DNA from: Acidobacteriota bacterium
GTDB taxonomy: Bacteria > Acidobacteriota > Terriglobia > Terriglobales > SCQP01
NCBI GenBank assembly: GCA_027459505.1
Contig: DAIDIE010000022.1
Span: forward strand, 1-64,000
Length of the DNA stretch: 64,000 nucleotides
Reading direction: 5' to 3'
Within the stretch, counting starts at the first letter, position 1. Every line of letters begins with the position of its first letter. The notes under the pieces were generated by a model. The model did not search any database and had not been told where the DNA came from. It saw nothing but the letters and a program-made list of their open reading frames with translations. Positions 39,060 through 46,468 of the stretch are shown here, in pieces. The translations under genes and the position numbers were made by a program.

Positions 39060-39947
39060 ATGAACCTGCAACGCCGCCATTTCCTGCAAACCGCCGCGGC
39101 CGCCGCCTCGTGTGCGCTGGGCAGCCTGCCCGCCTTCGCCATGCGGCGCAAGGCCTGGAGTAAACCCATTGGCGTTCAGCTTTACACGGAACGCGATCTG
39201 TATGCCAAAGATCCGCTGGGCACCCTCTGGAAGCTGGCCCACATGGGCTTTGGGCAAGTGGAGCTCATCAACGTGGGCAGCATTCCCGCGCCCCAATTAA
39301 AAAACGATCTGAAAAAGACGGGATTAAAGGCGATTGGCGGGCACTTTGCCTATGCCCAGGATGACGCCACCTGGCGGAAGCAGATCGACCTCTGCAAGCA
39401 GTACGAGCTGGAGTACCTGATCTGCCCCTTCAGCATGGCCAACGACCGCGATGGGTGGTTGCGGATTGCCGAAAATTTCAATCATGGCGCGCAACTGGCG
39501 CGGCAGGCGGGAGTGAAGTTCGGCTACCACAACCACCTGCAGGAGTTTCGTCCCCTGCACGACAACGGTGGGCCGGAGAAGAACGGATATGACATCCTGC
39601 TGAACCACACCGATCCCCATCTGGTTGACTTTGAGATGGATGTGTTCTGGATCACCTGGGCGGAGGCGGATCCGCTGCACTATTTCCGCTCCCATCCCGG
39701 GCGCTTCAAGCTGCTGCACATCAAGGATCTGCGGCCCGGACTCCAGGCGCGCAACCCGCGGGAGTTTCCCCCCAAGGGGCCGGCGCCGTTCGTCCCTGTG
39801 GGGCAGGGCGAGATCGTCTGGGATTGCATTTTCGCCCACACCGCCGAGGCTGGCGCCAACTACATCTTTGTGGAGCAGGACAACCAGCCCACCCTGCCGG
39901 AGTTGGCGTCGAGCGCCCGTTTTCTGCGAACCCTCTACATCGACTAG
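39060..39947 (+). CDS. Tat-exported sugar phosphate isomerase/epimerase-like TIM barrel protein
   Basis: 295 residues. Twin-arginine signal LQRRHFLQTAAAAA, then a xylose-isomerase-like barrel (AP endonuclease 2 superfamily): GVQLYTERDL, MGFGQVELINVG, GHFAYAQDD, KFGYHNHLQEF, DFEMDVFWI, and LLHIKDLRPG. His/Asp/Glu positions fit a divalent-metal site. Exported in folded form, presumably acting on a sugar or derivative in the periplasm. Monocistronic, convergent with the small-membrane-protein operon. Confidence 0.85.
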   Translation: MNLQRRHFLQTAAAAASCALGSLPAFAMRRKAWSKPIGVQLYTERDLYAKDPLGTLWKLAHMGFGQVELINVGSIPAPQLKNDLKKTGLKAIGGHFAYAQDDATWRKQIDLCKQYELEYLICPFSMANDRDGWLRIAENFNHGAQLARQAGVKFGYHNHLQEFRPLHDNGGPEKNGYDILLNHTDPHLVDFEMDVFWITWAEADPLHYFRSHPGRFKLLHIKDLRPGLQARNPREFPPKGPAPFVPVGQGEIVWDCIFAHTAEAGANYIFVEQDNQPTLPELASSARFLRTLYID

Positions 39948-39969
39948 CGCGCAAATACCGCCGGGTTCG

Positions 39970-40010
39970 GGGCGGCGGGCAAACGGCTGAAAAGCCGTTG
40001 CCCGCCGCGC
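39970..40010. terminator. Bidirectional terminator-like hairpin
   Basis: GCGGCGGGCA and ACGGCT pair with AGCCGT and TGCCCGCCGC around a GAAA tetraloop. It lies between convergent genes ending at 39947 (plus) and 40025 (minus). No clear T run on either side. Confidence 0.6.
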
Positions 40011-40024
40011 CAGCCGCCTCCTGG

Positions 40025-40297
40025 CTAGAAGCGCCGGTCGCGTTCAGCAAGGTTTTTCTTCAAAATCGCGCCCAGAATGATCAAAAACGAAATGAGCCGG
40101 ACAATATAGATAGAAGGGCTGCCTTCGTTAGGGTGAGCGACGCGCAGGAATCCCAGGCGGTTAAGACCCTCCACGAAGAAAGCAATGGCGAAGGCGAGAA
40201 ACAGGGAATCGCCGGTGCGGCGCCAGAACTTCAGGAAGAACAGCGCGGCGGTCAGCGACAGTGCGACGATAATGCCCAGCATGAATGCGGCAAGCAT
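40025..40297 (-). CDS. Small membrane protein (DUF5985-like), third in operon
   Basis: 90 residues with about three helices (MLGIIVALSLTAALFFLKF, LFLAFAIAFFVEGLNRL, IVRLISFLIILGAI). Weakly related to the two proteins upstream and to the protein at 42421-42798, sharing the pattern LAxAxAFFxxGxxxxL. Function unknown. Two bases separate it from the gene before it. Confidence 0.7.
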   Translation of the reverse strand: MLAAFMLGIIVALSLTAALFFLKFWRRTGDSLFLAFAIAFFVEGLNRLGFLRVAHPNEGSPSIYIVRLISFLIILGAILKKNLAERDRRF

Positions 40298-40299
40298 AG

Positions 40300-40557
40300 C
40301 TACTCCGCCTCCCAGATCAGACCATAGACGAGCAATGACATGGAAACGACCGCGCTCAGCAGCCGCGCCGGATAGAGATCCATTTGTGGCGGCAGAATAG
40401 CGTCAAGAAAGACCAGCACGTTAGAAATTCCCAGACCCACAAAGCAGAGCCCGCTCCAGAGCAGCAGGGCCTGGCGGCTGCGGCGGTAGCCGCGCAGCAG
40501 CAGCGCCGAGCAGGCGAAGCAAACAATGAAACCGAGAATGTAGACGACTTCACTCAT
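40300..40557 (-). CDS. Small membrane protein (DUF5985-like), copy 2
   Basis: 85 residues, nearly the same as the 84-residue product of 40688-40942 (shared VYILGF, CFACSALLLRGY-type and LWSGLCFxGLGISN segments, DLYPARLLSAV). Three helices. A recent tandem duplication. The 130-base gap to the next copy holds no gene. Confidence 0.8.
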   Translation of the reverse strand: MSEVVYILGFIVCFACSALLLRGYRRSRQALLLWSGLCFVGLGISNVLVFLDAILPPQMDLYPARLLSAVVSMSLLVYGLIWEAE

Positions 40558-40687
40558 AGATTTGCCTCGTCCAATCCTGGCGGCGGGGCTGCACCGCAGC
40601 CAGCAGCCTGCCGCTAAAAGCTGAATCGCTGGCCGGTGGGGCTAACAGGGGCGAACCGCCGTTTGTGGATGAACAGACCATGAATTC

Positions 40688-40942
40688 TTACTCCGTCTCC
40701 CAGATCAGGCCGAATACCAGCAGACCCATGGAAATGACGGCGCTCAGCAGGCGCGCCGGATAGAGATTGACGTTTGGAATTATCGGGTCGATGAAGACCA
40801 GGATGTTGGAGATTCCCAAGCCCAGGAAGCAGAGGCCGCTCCACAGTTGGAGGCGGTTGCGGTTACGTAAATAGCCGCGCAGCAGCAGTGCCGAACAGGC
40901 AAAGCTGACGAGAAAGCCGAGTATGTAGACGATTTCTCCCAT
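40688..40942 (-). CDS. Small membrane protein (DUF5985-like), copy 1
   Basis: 84 residues, three helices (IVYILGFLVSFACSALLL, LWSGLCFLGLGISNILVF, LLSAVISMGLLVFGLIW). It starts two bases after the winged-helix-like gene stop, so the two are cotranscribed. Function unknown. Confidence 0.8.
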   Translation of the reverse strand: MGEIVYILGFLVSFACSALLLRGYLRNRNRLQLWSGLCFLGLGISNILVFIDPIIPNVNLYPARLLSAVISMGLLVFGLIWETE

Positions 40943-40944
40943 AC

Positions 40945-41325
40945 TTACCCCTTAGGCTTGCGCAGGTCAAAGGCGCGCGCAAACTGCCCCAGCGGCGAAC
41001 TCTTGGCGTGAATCATTTTGGAGATGCGGATGAGGTCGCGGCGATAGCTGCGTTCCACGTCCTGCATCAAACCGTCCCGTCCGAGGGAACTGCTGTAGGC
41101 AAAACCCTTTTCCGCGCTTTGCGCCAACCCGTGCTCGGTCAGGTGATCGAGAACCTGCAGTGCCTGGTCATGATTGATGAAGAGCGCGTCCGCCATTTCG
41201 GCCACGCTCCAAAAACGGGGACGGCTTCCCCACAGCAGCAATAGGCCCTCCAGTTGGGGGACCGCGTCGATGTGCTGGAGCAGGAACTCGTCTACGTTTT
41301 GGCGATCCGGAGCCGTATCGCTCAT
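40945..41325 (-). CDS. Winged-helix-like protein heading the small-membrane-protein operon
   Basis: 126 residues, no membrane segment. Residues about 30-85 (RFWSVAEMADALFINHDQALQVLDHLTEHGLAQ) look like a winged helix-turn-helix of the MarR/ArsR type. The C-terminal part (RRDLIRISKMIHAK) is basic. It may regulate the operon or act with the membrane proteins; no sensor site is visible. Confidence 0.65.
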   Translation of the reverse strand: MSDTAPDRQNVDEFLLQHIDAVPQLEGLLLLWGSRPRFWSVAEMADALFINHDQALQVLDHLTEHGLAQSAEKGFAYSSSLGRDGLMQDVERSYRRDLIRISKMIHAKSSPLGQFARAFDLRKPKG

Positions 41326-41701
41326 AGGAACCCTTTAGCGGGAGATACCGCGGGTGTCGTAGAAGGTGAGAACTGAGAAAAACCAGGCGACAGCTGGTGC
41401 TCCCAAAGCTGGCATTGGAATACGAGCAACCGCCTCCGCACATCAGTGGAAGGGGCGGCGAGCAAGCCAGGATGATGAGCGCTTCGCATGGTAAAGCCGT
41501 CGCGATTCGGTGGCCACGAAGATTGCCGCAGCGGGCCTGGATACGTCCTCGGTCCGGGACGGGCGAACGGAGTACCAAGGATTAAGCTCTCAAAGACTCA
41601 AGTAGCCTTCGCGCTGTACTGAAAGTGAGGTCTCCGTCCGTGGGTAGCTCAACGCCAAGCCCGCCGCCCAGGAAAGGCGGAAAATTTGAGGTGTTGGACG
41701 G
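41326..41701. other. Intergenic, no gene recognised
   Basis: A 62-codon plus-strand frame exists at 41397-41585 but has no recognisable domain or ribosome binding site. No repeat family member was seen. Confidence 0.4.
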
Positions 41702-41974
41702 CTAGCAGCGCTGGACGCAGAAAAAAAGATGGAGTGGCGGGCCCTCGAAATCTAACAAGGGGGGAGCGTGGCCTTCTTCCAAAACCGCTGCCGGCCGGGG
41801 TAGCGAGAGGCGAATTGCCAGCGCGCAAATCACTCCCGCAAACAGAAAAACCAAAGCAAATCCAAAATCGGCAGTGACCAGGGACCAAGGCAAGTTCACG
41901 CTCGGCGCGATGCAGATGGCCAGGATCAACAGAAGCAGCAAACAGGTCACGATCTTGGTCAAAAAGCTGCGCAC
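41702..41974 (-). CDS. Small envelope protein, paralogue of 42866-43147, leaderless GTG start
   Basis: 90 residues from GTG 41974. One strong helix (FLTKIVTCLLLLLILAICIAP), the motif VNLPWSLVT, a second hydrophobic stretch, and a Cys-containing end FFCVQRC. The paralogue ends YLCSQRC and shares VRxxLTK and NLPWSxVT. The GTG is chosen because TATAAT lies six bases upstream in both genes, which leaves no room for a leader; the frame remains open further upstream. Function unknown. Confidence 0.65.
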   Translation of the reverse strand: MRSFLTKIVTCLLLLLILAICIAPSVNLPWSLVTADFGFALVFLFAGVICALAIRLSLPRPAAVLEEGHAPPLLDFEGPPLHLFFCVQRC

Positions 41975-41980
41975 CGGGTG

Positions 41981-42009
41981 ATTATACGCAGGGCGTATGG
42001 GGCACGCAA
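41981..42009 (-). promoter_or_regulatory. Promoter of the leaderless small-protein gene
   Basis: On the minus strand TTGCGT (42009-42004), a 17-base spacer, then TATAAT (41986-41981), six bases before GTG 41974. The -10 box is perfect. Confidence 0.6.
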
Positions 42010-42097
42010 GCAGTTCTGAAATCACCGTCTCCCTGCCGCGGTAGTGGAGCCCACGCCTACGATTGGATTGCGCACGGTGCCGCGGCATCAGCAACCT

Positions 42098-42424
42098 TCA
42101 ATGTTTGCTGTTGCTGGGCCTGCCGGGGGCACTGTCCACAAAAACCGAGCCGCTGTGCGCGTCCACGTAGACCAAATGTGTGTGCTGGCGGCGGATGCTG
42201 AACTCATAAAGCCAGCGGCGATGAATGAACTCAAAGTTTTGGGCGAGCAACCTGCCCGGCAGGGTGTGGAGAGCCAGCGCCCGTGCTTTTTCCAGGGTAA
42301 TGCGAATGGCGCTGCGCTTTTGCGCCGCCAAAATGGGAGCGGACACCAGCAGCAACCAACAAAGCACACTTGCGGCGCCAGCCCGCAAATGCGACCAGCG
42401 CATTGAACAATGCATCCAGCTCAT
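42098..42424 (-). CDS. PepSY-like small secreted protein
   Basis: 108 residues. N-terminal hydrophobic segment (GAASVLCWLLLVSAPILAA) as signal peptide, then one PepSY-type unit: ITLEKARALALHTLPGRLL, NFEFIHRRWLYEFSIRR, THLVYVDAHSGSVF. PepSY domains are extracytoplasmic modules, often inhibitory or sensory. It overlaps the membrane-protein gene before it by four bases (ATGA). A start at the second Met (residue 4) or at residue 8 is possible. Confidence 0.7.
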   Translation of the reverse strand: MSWMHCSMRWSHLRAGAASVLCWLLLVSAPILAAQKRSAIRITLEKARALALHTLPGRLLAQNFEFIHRRWLYEFSIRRQHTHLVYVDAHSGSVFVDSAPGRPSNSKH

Positions 42425-42798
42425 GAGTTCACCAGTGCCACGGCTTTATCCCGATCTGGATGGGCTGCGAACTCGTCGAGGGCGCCGTGCAAAACGGAAT
42501 CGTTACATTCCGGTGGCATGAGATTCTGCGCGGCCACGTTCTCCACTTTGCAAACGCTCCACCTCCAGCAGGCAATTGCGGCCAGTGCAATAAGCGGGGT
42601 GAGCAGTGCCGGTAGTTGTAATACCCACATGGAACGAAAGTGAAGGACGCGCAAGGCGTATGCTGCGCCCTGTAAAAAAAAGGCGAGCGCCAGCGCAATC
42701 CAAACGCGTTCACCACGGCGTCGCCCCAACTTCCATAGGTAGCGGGCGGCGGTAAACGAGAGGACGCAAACAGTGACCAGCAAAAGTCCTAACGTCAT
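42421..42798 (-). CDS. Small membrane protein related to the DUF5985-like group
   Basis: 125 residues from ATG 42798, with GAGG seven bases upstream; a TTG further up is less likely. Three helices (MTLGLLLVTVCVLSFTAARY, WIALALAFFLQGAAYAL, LPALLTPLIALAAIACW) and a polar tail of about 40 residues. Resembles the 40025-40297 protein. Cotranscribed with the PepSY gene. Confidence 0.7.
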   Translation of the reverse strand: MTLGLLLVTVCVLSFTAARYLWKLGRRRGERVWIALALAFFLQGAAYALRVLHFRSMWVLQLPALLTPLIALAAIACWRWSVCKVENVAAQNLMPPECNDSVLHGALDEFAAHPDRDKAVALVNS

Positions 42799-42865
42799 GC
42801 AATACCTCAAGCGCGAGTTTGTCAGCAAAAGCGCGGCCAGTGCCGCGTAGCGGAGTACTTGCTGA

Positions 42866-43147
42866 TCAGCAACGCTGGCTACAGAGGTAGATCGGAAGGC
42901 CCAGTTCGCTTGGTGGGGTCCGGGGTGCGAGAATGCTAGTCAAAAGCGGCTTTTGGGCAAGCCGAAAGTCCGGCAACGTCAATGCGCCAAGGCCCAGCAG
43001 AATGGCGGCACAGGCCAGGAACAGAGCGGGTGCCGCATGATCGCCGGTAACCACTGACCAGGGGAGATTCACCTGTGGAGCGACGCAGATGAAAATCACC
43101 AGCAGCAACAGCAAAAGCGCGAGCAACTTGGTCAGCAGTGTGCGCAC
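42866..43147 (-). CDS. Small envelope protein, paralogue of 41702-41974, leaderless GTG start
   Basis: 93 residues from GTG 43147. LTKLLALLLLLLVIFICVAP helix, VNLPWSVVT, a second helix, and the Cys end YLCSQRC. See the paralogue for the start argument. Positioned just after the NtrY-type kinase gene but with its own promoter. Confidence 0.65.
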   Translation of the reverse strand: MRTLLTKLLALLLLLLVIFICVAPQVNLPWSVVTGDHAAPALFLACAAILLGLGALTLPDFRLAQKPLLTSILAPRTPPSELGLPIYLCSQRC

Positions 43148-43153
43148 CCGGGC

Positions 43154-43182
43154 ATTATATAGGCCGCACATGTGCAGAGCAA
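43154..43182 (-). promoter_or_regulatory. Promoter of the second leaderless small-protein gene
   Basis: On the minus strand TTGCTC (43182-43177), a 17-base spacer, then TATAAT (43159-43154), again six bases before GTG. Confidence 0.6.
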
Positions 43183-43347
43183 GCGCCCGGTCCAACACCG
43201 GGGACTGCAGTTGGTCTCCGGTACACACTCCAAATTCGTGCGGCAATCCGAAACGGCGCCTGTTTCGAAGCAAGCTTGAATGGCGCGGTGCGAAGCGCCA
43301 CCGCAGTTGTGACCGCGCTGGCGAAGTTGGGCGCAATGGCGCGGCTT

Positions 43348-44904
43348 TCAGGACCCTGGCAGAGGCAGTTGCAGCAGCGCGCGGCAACCGTGGGCATAGG
43401 GATGTTCATCGGCCCGATTTAGTAATTGCAGGGTTCCGCCGTGGGCTTCCGCAATCTGGCGGATCAAGACCAGGCCAATTCCGCTGCCCTCAGGCTTGGT
43501 CGTGAAGAACGGGACAAACAAGTTGCTGGTGTTGAGACCGGGGCCGCCGTCCTCGATTTCCAGGAGCAGCGAATCTGCGTGCAGGCGCCAGCGCAATACG
43601 ATCTCCCGCAGTGGTTCGTCATAGGATGCTGGAGCGGGCTGACGGTTTTCTTCCTGGTATTGCAGCGACGCTTCGGCGGCATTCCGCAGCAGATTGATAA
43701 GAAGGTGATCCATCTGGTCGCGATCAGCGAGCACGTGGACTGGCGGTCCAGGCTCGATGCGGATAGGCCAGCGGCGTTCATGGAAGATCACGGTTTGTAG
43801 CCACGAGGGTATGTCCAGCGGCGCCAGCGACGGCAACGGTAGTCTGGCCAGACGCGCATAGGCTTGCAGAAAGCGGGTCACGGCCTGCGCGCGATTGGAG
43901 ATCACCGCAAGCCCGCTCTCCATGTCATTCTCCCAGTCGCTGCTGCGCGGGCTGGTCCGCAGCACCTGTTGCAAGGTGCCGGCGAGAGATTGAATAGGAG
44001 CGAGCGAGTTGTTTAACTCGTGACCGAGCACACGAATCAGGCGTTGCCACGAGGCGCGTTCCTGTTCGCGCAGCAACCCGCTTACGTCGTTGAGCACTAC
44101 GAGAGTATGAGCGGCTCCTCCGGTGCGAAACACGGCGCGGTGCAACTCCCAGTGCGACGTGTGGCCGGGGATCTGCAGTGTGCGCACGGGAGCGCCGAGG
44201 AGGCAGTCCAGCAAGCCGATTTCGCTCGCCGATTTGCCGATCACTGCGGCGCGCTCACTTGCCAGCAGGCGCTCCGCAGCCGGATTGGCCAGCTGAAGGA
44301 GCTGGTGGGCATCAAAGGTAAGGACGGCCACATCGATTTCCGCCATGACCTTGCCCAGCAGGTGACTGGTCTCCTGCGTGGTGTAGCGCTCCGCCTGCAG
44401 CGTCTGCGCGAAAAGCCCTAGTTCCTGAACGGCAGCGCCCATGGCTCCTCCGGGATGCGCGGCGTGCATCCGGATGGAGAAGTCATTGGCGCGAAAGCTG
44501 GCCAACACATTCGAGAGGGTCTGCCAAGGACGGCTCATGCGCCGCCACGCTACGCGCGCAATCCAGAGGGGCCAGCCAATAAGAGCCAGGGCGTATCCGC
44601 AGACGAGCCAATGCGATTGAATCGTTCGCATCCGCCAAAGTAGGATCACTGTGGCGGGAAGGGCGGCGGCCAGCGTCAGCAGGGCGGTGATGAATTCATA
44701 ACCGGGCCGGGAATGCCGCAGGCTGTGGGCTGCGTATTGATCTTTCGTGCCGTTCAGTTCAAGACTATGGGGGTGGTCCACCGGAATGTTCTGGTCAAGT
44801 CCGGATGGCAGTCTGCTGCGGGAGTCTTCTTGAGTCGTCTCAGCGAGGCCCGGGCGCAGATGCCGTGCCCACTTCCTCCGCGCTGAATGCGAAAGCCTCA
44901 CCAT
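43348..44904 (-). CDS. NtrY-type membrane sensor histidine kinase
   Basis: 518 residues from ATG 44904, four bases after the regulator stop. Two helices (about 68-120), a HAMP-like region, a PAS-like domain (about 180-290), HisKA with the phospho-acceptor in VLGHELNNSLAPI, and HATPase with NLLRNAAEASL, EDGGPGL and GSGIGLVLIRQI. The first about 65 residues are polar and poorly matched, so the true start could be later. It should phosphorylate the NtrC-type regulator encoded just upstream. Confidence 0.88.
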   Translation of the reverse strand: MVRLSHSARRKWARHLRPGLAETTQEDSRSRLPSGLDQNIPVDHPHSLELNGTKDQYAAHSLRHSRPGYEFITALLTLAAALPATVILLWRMRTIQSHWLVCGYALALIGWPLWIARVAWRRMSRPWQTLSNVLASFRANDFSIRMHAAHPGGAMGAAVQELGLFAQTLQAERYTTQETSHLLGKVMAEIDVAVLTFDAHQLLQLANPAAERLLASERAAVIGKSASEIGLLDCLLGAPVRTLQIPGHTSHWELHRAVFRTGGAAHTLVVLNDVSGLLREQERASWQRLIRVLGHELNNSLAPIQSLAGTLQQVLRTSPRSSDWENDMESGLAVISNRAQAVTRFLQAYARLARLPLPSLAPLDIPSWLQTVIFHERRWPIRIEPGPPVHVLADRDQMDHLLINLLRNAAEASLQYQEENRQPAPASYDEPLREIVLRWRLHADSLLLEIEDGGPGLNTSNLFVPFFTTKPEGSGIGLVLIRQIAEAHGGTLQLLNRADEHPYAHGCRALLQLPLPGS

Positions 44905-44908
44905 AACG

Positions 44909-46300
44909 CTACCGTTGCAATCGGCGGTAGAGCGCGGCGCGGCTCAGGCCAAGTGAGCGGGCCGCACGGCTCACGTTCCCCTGGTGGCGATCCATCGCCT
45001 TTCTTACGAGAAGCTGTTCGACCTCTTCCAGGGTAAGGCTGTCCAAAGTTTTGCTCAGGTCAGCCCCGTCTTGGGTAACGGTTCCCAGGCCCAGGTCTCG
45101 AGCCAAAAGACGCTCACCTGCGCTCATCAGCACGGCACGCTCTATGACGTGTTCCAACTCCCGGACATTGCCTGGCCACGGGTAATGCAGCAGTTCGCGA
45201 ACGGCTTCCGGTGCGATGGTGTTAACCGGGCGGCGATAGCGGCTGGCGAACACCAACAGGAAATGTTGCGCCAGGGGAGTAATGTCTTCGCGGCGCTCGC
45301 GCAAGGGAGGAAGCCGCAATTCGATGGTGTTCAGCCGGTACAGCAGATCCTGCCGGAAGCGGCCCGCGGCGGCTTCGGCATGGAGATCGGCATTCGTGGC
45401 CGAGATGATGCGGACATTGGTTTGATAGGTGCGCGACGATCCTACGCGCTCGAACTCGCCCGACTGCAACACTCGCAACAGCTTGCTCTGCTGGGACAGG
45501 GGCACATTGGCAATTTCGTCGAGGAAGATGGTCCCGCCGTCCGCCATTTCGAAACGGCCCGTGCGATCGTTGCGCGCGTCGGTGAAGGCGCCCTTGGCGT
45601 GGCCAAACAGTTCGCTTTCAAAAAGGTTATCGGGGATGGCGCCGGTATTGACGGTGATCATGGGCCGCCCAGTGCGCGCGGAGGCGGTGTGCAGGGCGCG
45701 CGCCGCCACTTCTTTTCCGGTGCCGTGCTCACCGAGAATGAGCACGCTGGCATCTGACGGAGCCACTCGTGCGATCAGTTCGCCCACCTTTTGCATTGCC
45801 GGCGAAACGGCGATCAACTCGCTGGCCGTGGGGTAGTCTGCGCGCAGCCGCTGGTTTTCGTCGGTCAGTCGCTGGGTGTGGCGCAAAGCGCGCCCCAATT
45901 CCACCTGGCTGCGCACAGTGGCAAGGACCCGCTGATTTTCCCAGGGCTTTTGGATGAAATCCCCCGCGCCGCCCTGCATCGCGCGGACCGCCAGTTCGAT
46001 GCTGCCCCAGGCGGTCATGACGATAACGGGAAGGGACGGGTCCTCCTCGCGGATTTGCCGCAACAACTCCAATCCCTCACTGCCGGAGGTGGTGTCGCGG
46101 GTGTAATTGAGATCCAGAAGGAGGAGATCGAATTGGTGTTCGCGCAGGGCAGCCTGCAACGCCCACGTCGACTGCACACAATGGACGTCGTAACCGGCGG
46201 ACTTGAACAGCAGGCGCAACGATTCCAGTATGTCGCGTTGATCGTCAGCCACCAGCAGGCGTCCCGCGCCGGCGGCCAGTTGGGGAATGGGATGCGTCAT
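44909..46300 (-). CDS. NtrC-family sigma54-dependent response regulator
   Basis: 463 residues from ATG 46300 (the longer frame to 46426 adds unrelated residues). Receiver domain (about 15-130, Asp in LLLDLNYTRD), AAA+ domain with Walker A GEHGTGKE and the sigma54 loop GAFTDA, Walker B GGTIFLDEI, and a Fis-type HTH at the C-terminus (VSRAARSLGLSRAALYRRL). Note two deviations: GAFTGA is GAFTDA, and GESGTGKE is GEHGTGKE. It probably controls the upstream ABC exporter operon. Confidence 0.9.
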   Translation of the reverse strand: MTHPIPQLAAGAGRLLVADDQRDILESLRLLFKSAGYDVHCVQSTWALQAALREHQFDLLLLDLNYTRDTTSGSEGLELLRQIREEDPSLPVIVMTAWGSIELAVRAMQGGAGDFIQKPWENQRVLATVRSQVELGRALRHTQRLTDENQRLRADYPTASELIAVSPAMQKVGELIARVAPSDASVLILGEHGTGKEVAARALHTASARTGRPMITVNTGAIPDNLFESELFGHAKGAFTDARNDRTGRFEMADGGTIFLDEIANVPLSQQSKLLRVLQSGEFERVGSSRTYQTNVRIISATNADLHAEAAAGRFRQDLLYRLNTIELRLPPLRERREDITPLAQHFLLVFASRYRRPVNTIAPEAVRELLHYPWPGNVRELEHVIERAVLMSAGERLLARDLGLGTVTQDGADLSKTLDSLTLEEVEQLLVRKAMDRHQGNVSRAARSLGLSRAALYRRLQR

Positions 46301-46468
46301 TGCCGGAGTTCCGGTGCAATCATAGCGCCAAAAATCCGGCAGGGCACGAGCAGCAGTCGAAATCGAGGGGAAGAGTTGAGGCGACGCTGCGCATCGGGGC
46401 GAAGGTGGGCGTCCGGAATCGGACACGATGTCTCGAAAGCGGACGCATCGGCGCCATGCCCCTACCAG

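Follow-up and report, generated by a model that had tools for sequence, protein, structure and literature searches.

In this study, we identified a previously undescribed family of small open reading frames (ORFs) in soil acidobacteria, most of which end in a cysteine codon directly followed by the stop codon (the Cys-stop family). Two of its members, S1 and S2, lie in the window, the whole 64,000-nt stretch of DNA that was analysed. We put at about one half the probability that S1 and S2 are cis-acting, leaderless, membrane-targeted leader peptides which govern translation of the genes behind them through the time that a ribosome spends at the Cys-stop. The family combines a terminal Cys, a fixed spacing, a −10 element at the leaderless position, a location before unrelated operons, and complementarity between the bases following the stop and the Shine–Dalgarno (SD) sequence of the downstream gene. 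A leader role of the family is moderately supported by these features, and control is probably exerted through slow termination at the Cys-stop.

Results

S1 and S2 are paralogues that head separate groups of genes

Sequence comparison showed that S1 and S2 (Table 1) are paralogues (39% identity, E 4e-10). They share VNLPWS and a C-terminal C-x-Q-R-C, in agreement with an earlier note on this DNA, made from the sequence alone, which had reported a common VNLPWS motif and a Cys-containing QRC end. The TATAAT that the note had placed six bases 5′ of the GTG in both genes was found exactly there (TATAAT-N6-GTG at 41972-41986 for S1 and 43145-43159 for S2). This string occurs only five times in the 4.06-Mb genome, two of the occurrences being S1 and S2. 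Of the 17-base spacer to a TTGC-type −35 element, likewise described before, the spacing is correct and TTGCGT and TTGCTC are present, but both boxes agree with TTGACA only in TTG; for this reason they are weak evidence, and the two promoters were absent from a consensus promoter scan.

Table 1 Features of the S1 and S2 loci (positions in the window)
Feature	Position	Strand	Remarks
Leader ORF S1 (candidate)	41702..41974	-	90 aa, GTG start, ends CVQRC-TAG; family alignment
Leader ORF S2 (candidate)	42866..43147	-	93 aa, GTG start, ends CSQRC-TGA; family alignment
TATAAT of S1	41981..41986	-	six bases 5′ of S1 GTG
TATAAT of S2	43154..43159	-	six bases 5′ of S2 GTG
Weak −35 of S1, TTGCGT	42004..42009	-	17-nt spacer
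Weak −35 of S2, TTGCTC	43177..43182	-	17-nt spacer
UACCUC within last S2 codons	42884..42889	-	predicted pairing with SD of next gene; in MFE stem
GAGGUA, SD of gene behind S2	42803..42808	-	
DUF5985-like membrane protein, first gene behind S2	42421..42798	-	ATG 42796-42798; overlaps PepSY gene
PepSY-domain protein	42098..42424	-	Pfam 26.4 bits, cut-off 24
Winged-helix-like protein, next gene after S1	40945..41325	-	126 aa; 376-nt gap; fold judged by eye
Three DUF5985 genes behind winged-helix-like gene	40025..40942	-	Pfam

As to the two genes that S1 and S2 had been said to flank, the PepSY assignment holds by Pfam, whereas the DUF5985-like protein gave no match to Pfam DUF5985 (PF19447) above the gathering score, although it resembles a true DUF5985 neighbour (BLASTP, E 1e-8). 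The pairing of S1 and S2 proved not to be their essential feature: S2 is placed as the leader ORF of the DUF5985-like/PepSY pair, and S1 as a separate leader of the winged-helix-like and DUF5985 genes. No Pfam family matched the winged-helix-like protein at cut-off, and a search of Rfam gave no match in 39900-44000. An NtrY-like histidine kinase and an NtrC-like sigma-54 activator are encoded immediately 5′ of S2, on its strand (window 43348-46426).

The source genome contains exactly three members of the family. The third paralogue, S3 (locus L003), lies elsewhere, carries TATGCT-N6-GTG, and, like S1, has the winged-helix-like gene and DUF5985 genes behind it, i.e., the locus is duplicated. 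The winged-helix-like gene (window 40945-41325; L003 1899-2288) occurs together with two or three DUF5985 genes here and in seven relatives; no leader was found upstream of this cassette in the seven relatives checked.

The position of the promoter supports leaderless initiation

Across the family, 12 of the 20 strong −10 hexamers precede the codon of the invariant Pro (described below) by 80-89 nt, with 0-2 in each other 10-nt bin, and SD sequences are nearly absent from the scanned upstream sequence of the members. This conserved −10 position and the near absence of upstream SD sequences bear out the leaderless GTG starts proposed in the earlier note, and no member of the family extends N-terminal of the start. 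We counted the ATG and GTG codons that open frames of 80 or more codons over 570 kb of the source genome: 14 of them lay at an offset of exactly 6 nt from a preceding −10-like hexamer, whereas the other offsets averaged 3.2 (about fourfold). By eye, Era-like and Fmt-like housekeeping genes are apparently among these examples. Judged from sequence, leaderless initiation is widespread in the source organism, so that leaderless starts of S1 and S2 would be ordinary. Leaderless genes make up 9.7-19.4% of the genes across three Acidobacteria (PMC3160421). Those in which TANNNT precedes the start by about 12 bp resemble the Cys-stop ORFs in the position of the promoter and the lack of an SD sequence; as a general feature of the genome, this is uninformative on the function of the Cys-stop ORFs.

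The Cys-stop family is distributed in Terriglobales

Single- and three-sequence searches had given the impression of a species-restricted orphan. This reading was wrong: addition of a member from genome G017 to the profile opened up a wider family, and the G017-based profile gave matches at E ≤ 0.05 in 52 of 397 Terriglobales genomes, including some chance matches inside long frames. In total, 40 members were extracted. Outside Terriglobales no convincing match was found; the weak matches L006 and L007, together with matches in the phylum located within long frames, were rejected as spurious. No family in Pfam, NCBIfam or PHROGs covers the 26 members scanned, and the literature searched contained no description of this family or of the LPLQI-stop ORFs presented below.

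The QRC end, to which the earlier note had drawn attention, led the way: it is a variant of a C-terminal Cys that is nearly invariant in the family. The terminal Cys is present in 38 of the 40 members and in 3 of 198 control genes (1.5%; P 5e-38). Because 24 of the 25 loci matched by the first profile solely in their N-terminal part still end in Cys, the residue was not selected for by the search. A second Cys precedes it by four residues (CxxxC) in 20 of the 40 members. The remaining two loci, L101 and L131, end in Arg (CGC); they could be degenerate copies, or the Cys could be not strictly needed.

An N-terminal helix and an invariant Pro (Pro24; APxVDLP) are common to the family. In the 40 members, the distance from Pro24 to the end is 65.0 ± 2.8 residues, with unconserved sequence in between. 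Pairwise dN/dS was about 0.14-0.45 for pairs with usable dS, and was mostly lower in the first 36 codons. AlphaFold predicted helices at residues 2-22 and 38-57, followed by a low-confidence tail of 36 residues (mean pLDDT 70.7, pTM 0.35). About 36 residues is approximately the length of the ribosome exit tunnel. A bias in the stop codon (TAG in 21 of 40, P 0.02) was considered as a clue and was too weak to use.

Unrelated operons lie behind the Cys-stop ORFs

Among the members with neighbours read, most are separated by 45-125 nt from the operon that follows on the same strand, and these operons are unrelated to one another. Clustering of the neighbour genes grouped the downstream partners, all on the same strand behind the leader ORF, into radical SAM plus class II aldolase genes (11 loci), a family of small proteins that weakly resemble receiver domains (nine loci, two further downstream behind otsBA), otsB/otsA (six to seven loci), an ammonium transporter (three loci), and a glycosyltransferase (one locus), in addition to the two groups of genes behind S2 and S1 in the source genome. 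In about nine members the partner operon is distant or not clearly adjacent, and S1, with 376 nt to the next gene, is among the weaker cases. The small receiver-like family, whose similarity is weak and comes from one member, recurs behind the leader or behind otsBA (L105 5459-5887, L112 5482-5856, L114 6301-6714, and L118 3595-3975). None of secA, secDF or yidC was among the downstream genes identified.

Two alternatives can be weighed against these neighbourhoods. In 11 loci the adjoining radical SAM gene is weakly like those of peptide maturases, and the ORF could then encode the precursor of a modified peptide that the adjacent enzyme matures. However, all the radical SAM matches fall far below the NCBIfam cut-offs (31.7 versus 400 bits), the radical SAM gene is also present without a Cys-stop ORF (e.g., at L159), and, given that most members adjoin other genes, we regard this as extremely improbable. 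The other alternative is cysteine-responsive attenuation as in mycobacteria, where a shortage of Cys-tRNA would stall the ribosome at the terminal Cys codon and change downstream expression, the rest of the peptide being incidental. A leaderless upstream ORF (uORF) with a near-invariant Cys codon, and in half of the members a second one close by, is what such a mechanism would call for, and the mycobacterial polycysteine uORFs are likewise leaderless ORFs with Cys codons upstream of an operon. As far as they are characterized in the account of Canestrari et al. (2020) cited in PMC9031893, however, those uORFs need contiguous Cys codons, whereas here a single terminal Cys codon, not a run, is near-invariant and the peptide is a conserved membrane peptide of about 90 aa. 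The N-terminal helix and Pro24, both strongly constrained, the fixed spacing, and the fact that no sulfur genes were recognised among the downstream genes identified also speak against attenuation, which we consider unlikely.

Bases after the stop are complementary to the downstream SD sequence

The 22 nt that follow the leader stop were compared with the SD region in the 28 loci where the start of the downstream gene is clear. The longest Watson–Crick run within a locus averaged 5.36, against 4.39 ± 0.17 when loci were permuted (P < 2e-4); the signal was maximal at the stop codon and gone 10 nt further on, and no such complementarity was seen in 13 control gene pairs. The helices differ by locus, as in TTTCCACCT/AGGTGGAAA (L105), TTCCTCCC/GGGAGGAA (L111), CCCTCGA/TCGAGGG (L110), and CTCCGATC/GATCGGAG (L116). 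Measured by the energy of the duplex between post-stop and SD regions instead of by run length, the effect was weaker (P 0.008), and runs allowing G-U were not significant (P 0.07-0.09). The predicted pairing in S2 lies slightly earlier, between UACCUC in the last codons and GAGGUA of the next SD sequence, and the total fold energy of S2 is ordinary (z −0.38). No post-stop/SD pairing was seen in S1. When a ribosome footprint was masked in silico at the stop, the SD sequence was clearly freed in 6 of the 28 loci; over the whole set this simulation of ribosome occupancy was not significant (P 0.23-0.31), and the release of the SD sequence is therefore a step that we infer.

Short gaps and SD pairing would also be expected from simple translational coupling, in which the leader serves only to bring in ribosomes that open the SD sequence of the next gene or reinitiate there, with neither sensing nor arrest. 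Such coupling leaves the near-invariant terminal Cys, Pro24, and the fixed spacing unexplained, and we think it quite improbable.

A putative second leader family occupies the same site

Using the radical SAM gene as an anchor in 149 genomes, we found that in many genomes of the same genus the place before the radical SAM operon is taken not by a Cys-stop ORF, which these genomes lack, but by a different two-helix ORF of about 135 aa. It contains a GGQD core and ends in LP[LI][QR][IV] followed by TGA, with a fixed spacing of 78-81 residues from GQD to the end (the LPLQI-stop ORF). In the relatives of G017 (L168-L186), its stop lies about 92-112 nt upstream of the radical SAM gene, and several loci show a similar pairing between post-stop bases and the SD sequence. 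No Pfam or NCBIfam family matched it above cut-off, and homology between the Cys-stop and LPLQI-stop ORFs, sought by profile comparison, was rejected. In other genomes neither ORF stands before the radical SAM gene. We regard the LPLQI-stop ORF as a putative second, non-homologous leader family.

These results also bear on the idea that the Cys-stop ORFs encode a genuine small membrane protein that acts in trans and is co-expressed with varied operons, its terminal Cys serving as a thiol, metal or modification site. The dN/dS values indicate purifying selection at the protein level, two helices are predicted, and the near-invariant C-terminal Cys, often within CxxxC, would suit such a site. 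On the other hand, the distribution in the order is patchy, the partner operons are unrelated while the next gene is close by, the bases after the stop are predicted to pair with the SD sequence, and at the same site the leader is replaced by a non-homologous ORF. Since two unrelated ORFs share one layout at the same site, a cis-regulatory role fits better, and a protein acting in trans seems to us not very probable.

Discussion

The reading that we prefer for S1 and S2, that of cis-acting leader peptides, may work as follows. The 5′ end of the transcript would be the GTG itself, and a 70S ribosome would start on this leaderless end. The nascent chain would insert its N-terminal helix, and probably the second helix too, into the membrane, and the unstructured tail of about 36 residues would fill the exit tunnel when the ribosome arrives at the Cys-stop. 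Bases at the leader stop and immediately behind it are predicted to form a helix with the SD sequence of the downstream gene. A ribosome lingering at the Cys-stop would cover these bases and open the downstream gene for translation, and after quick release the gene would stay closed. The time of lingering may be set by membrane insertion or by the chemistry of the last residues. That ribosomes linger or arrest at the Cys-stop, what signal is sensed, and the direction of the regulation are points that we infer from the arrangement of the loci.

Several known systems resemble this arrangement. Some arrest peptides halt the ribosome when the stop codon occupies its A site (PMC10987492). Like these peptides and MifM, VemP, and CliM, the Cys-stop ORFs are uORFs that carry a segment for the membrane or for export and are conserved at the C-terminus, occupy an upstream gene position, and show predicted pairing between the ORFs around the SD sequence. 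Regulatory arrest peptides have conserved C-terminal residues at the stall site; at the putative stall site of the Cys-stop family the conserved residue is the terminal Cys (38 of 40). Unlike them, the family ends in Cys-stop and probably starts leaderless, its arrest is putative, and, in contrast to sec- or yidC-linked arrest peptides, it heads unrelated metabolic and regulatory operons. The copper-sensing DUF2946 peptides CutF, in which the nascent chain controls a stem-loop that shields the SD sequence (PMC9973294), and CruR, which acts via Rho-dependent termination (PMC9426467), are also small exported or membrane nascent chains that head operons and control them in cis. However, the Cys-stop ORFs lack the internal CXXC plus RAPP/PP end of these peptides and have Cys as the last residue, and no metal genes were recognised behind them. 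None of the 26 members scanned matched Pfam DUF2946 (PF11162), and no PP end occurs in the family alignments. By the features tested, the family belongs to none of the stop-codon arrest peptides, CutF, CruR, and the mycobacterial polycysteine uORFs, the last as far as the source describes them.

Taking the two families together, we tentatively suggest, as a possibility less secure than the reading of S1 and S2, that Terriglobales carry interchangeable, non-homologous, membrane-inserted leaders (Cys-stop and LPLQI-stop) that stall at termination, serve as movable switches before unrelated operons, and sense membrane insertion or thiol state.

To our knowledge, most arrest and leader peptides described so far are each dedicated to a single pathway, such as secretion, copper or macrolides, and little is known to us of posttranscriptional control in Acidobacteriota, an abundant phylum of soil. 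Here, one leader family heads many unrelated operons, and its near-invariant terminal Cys is without a counterpart in the described arrest motifs that we found. About 40 sequences are ready for direct arrest assays. Our study suggests that the ‘hypothetical small membrane proteins’ of Acidobacteriota may hide a class of cis-regulators.
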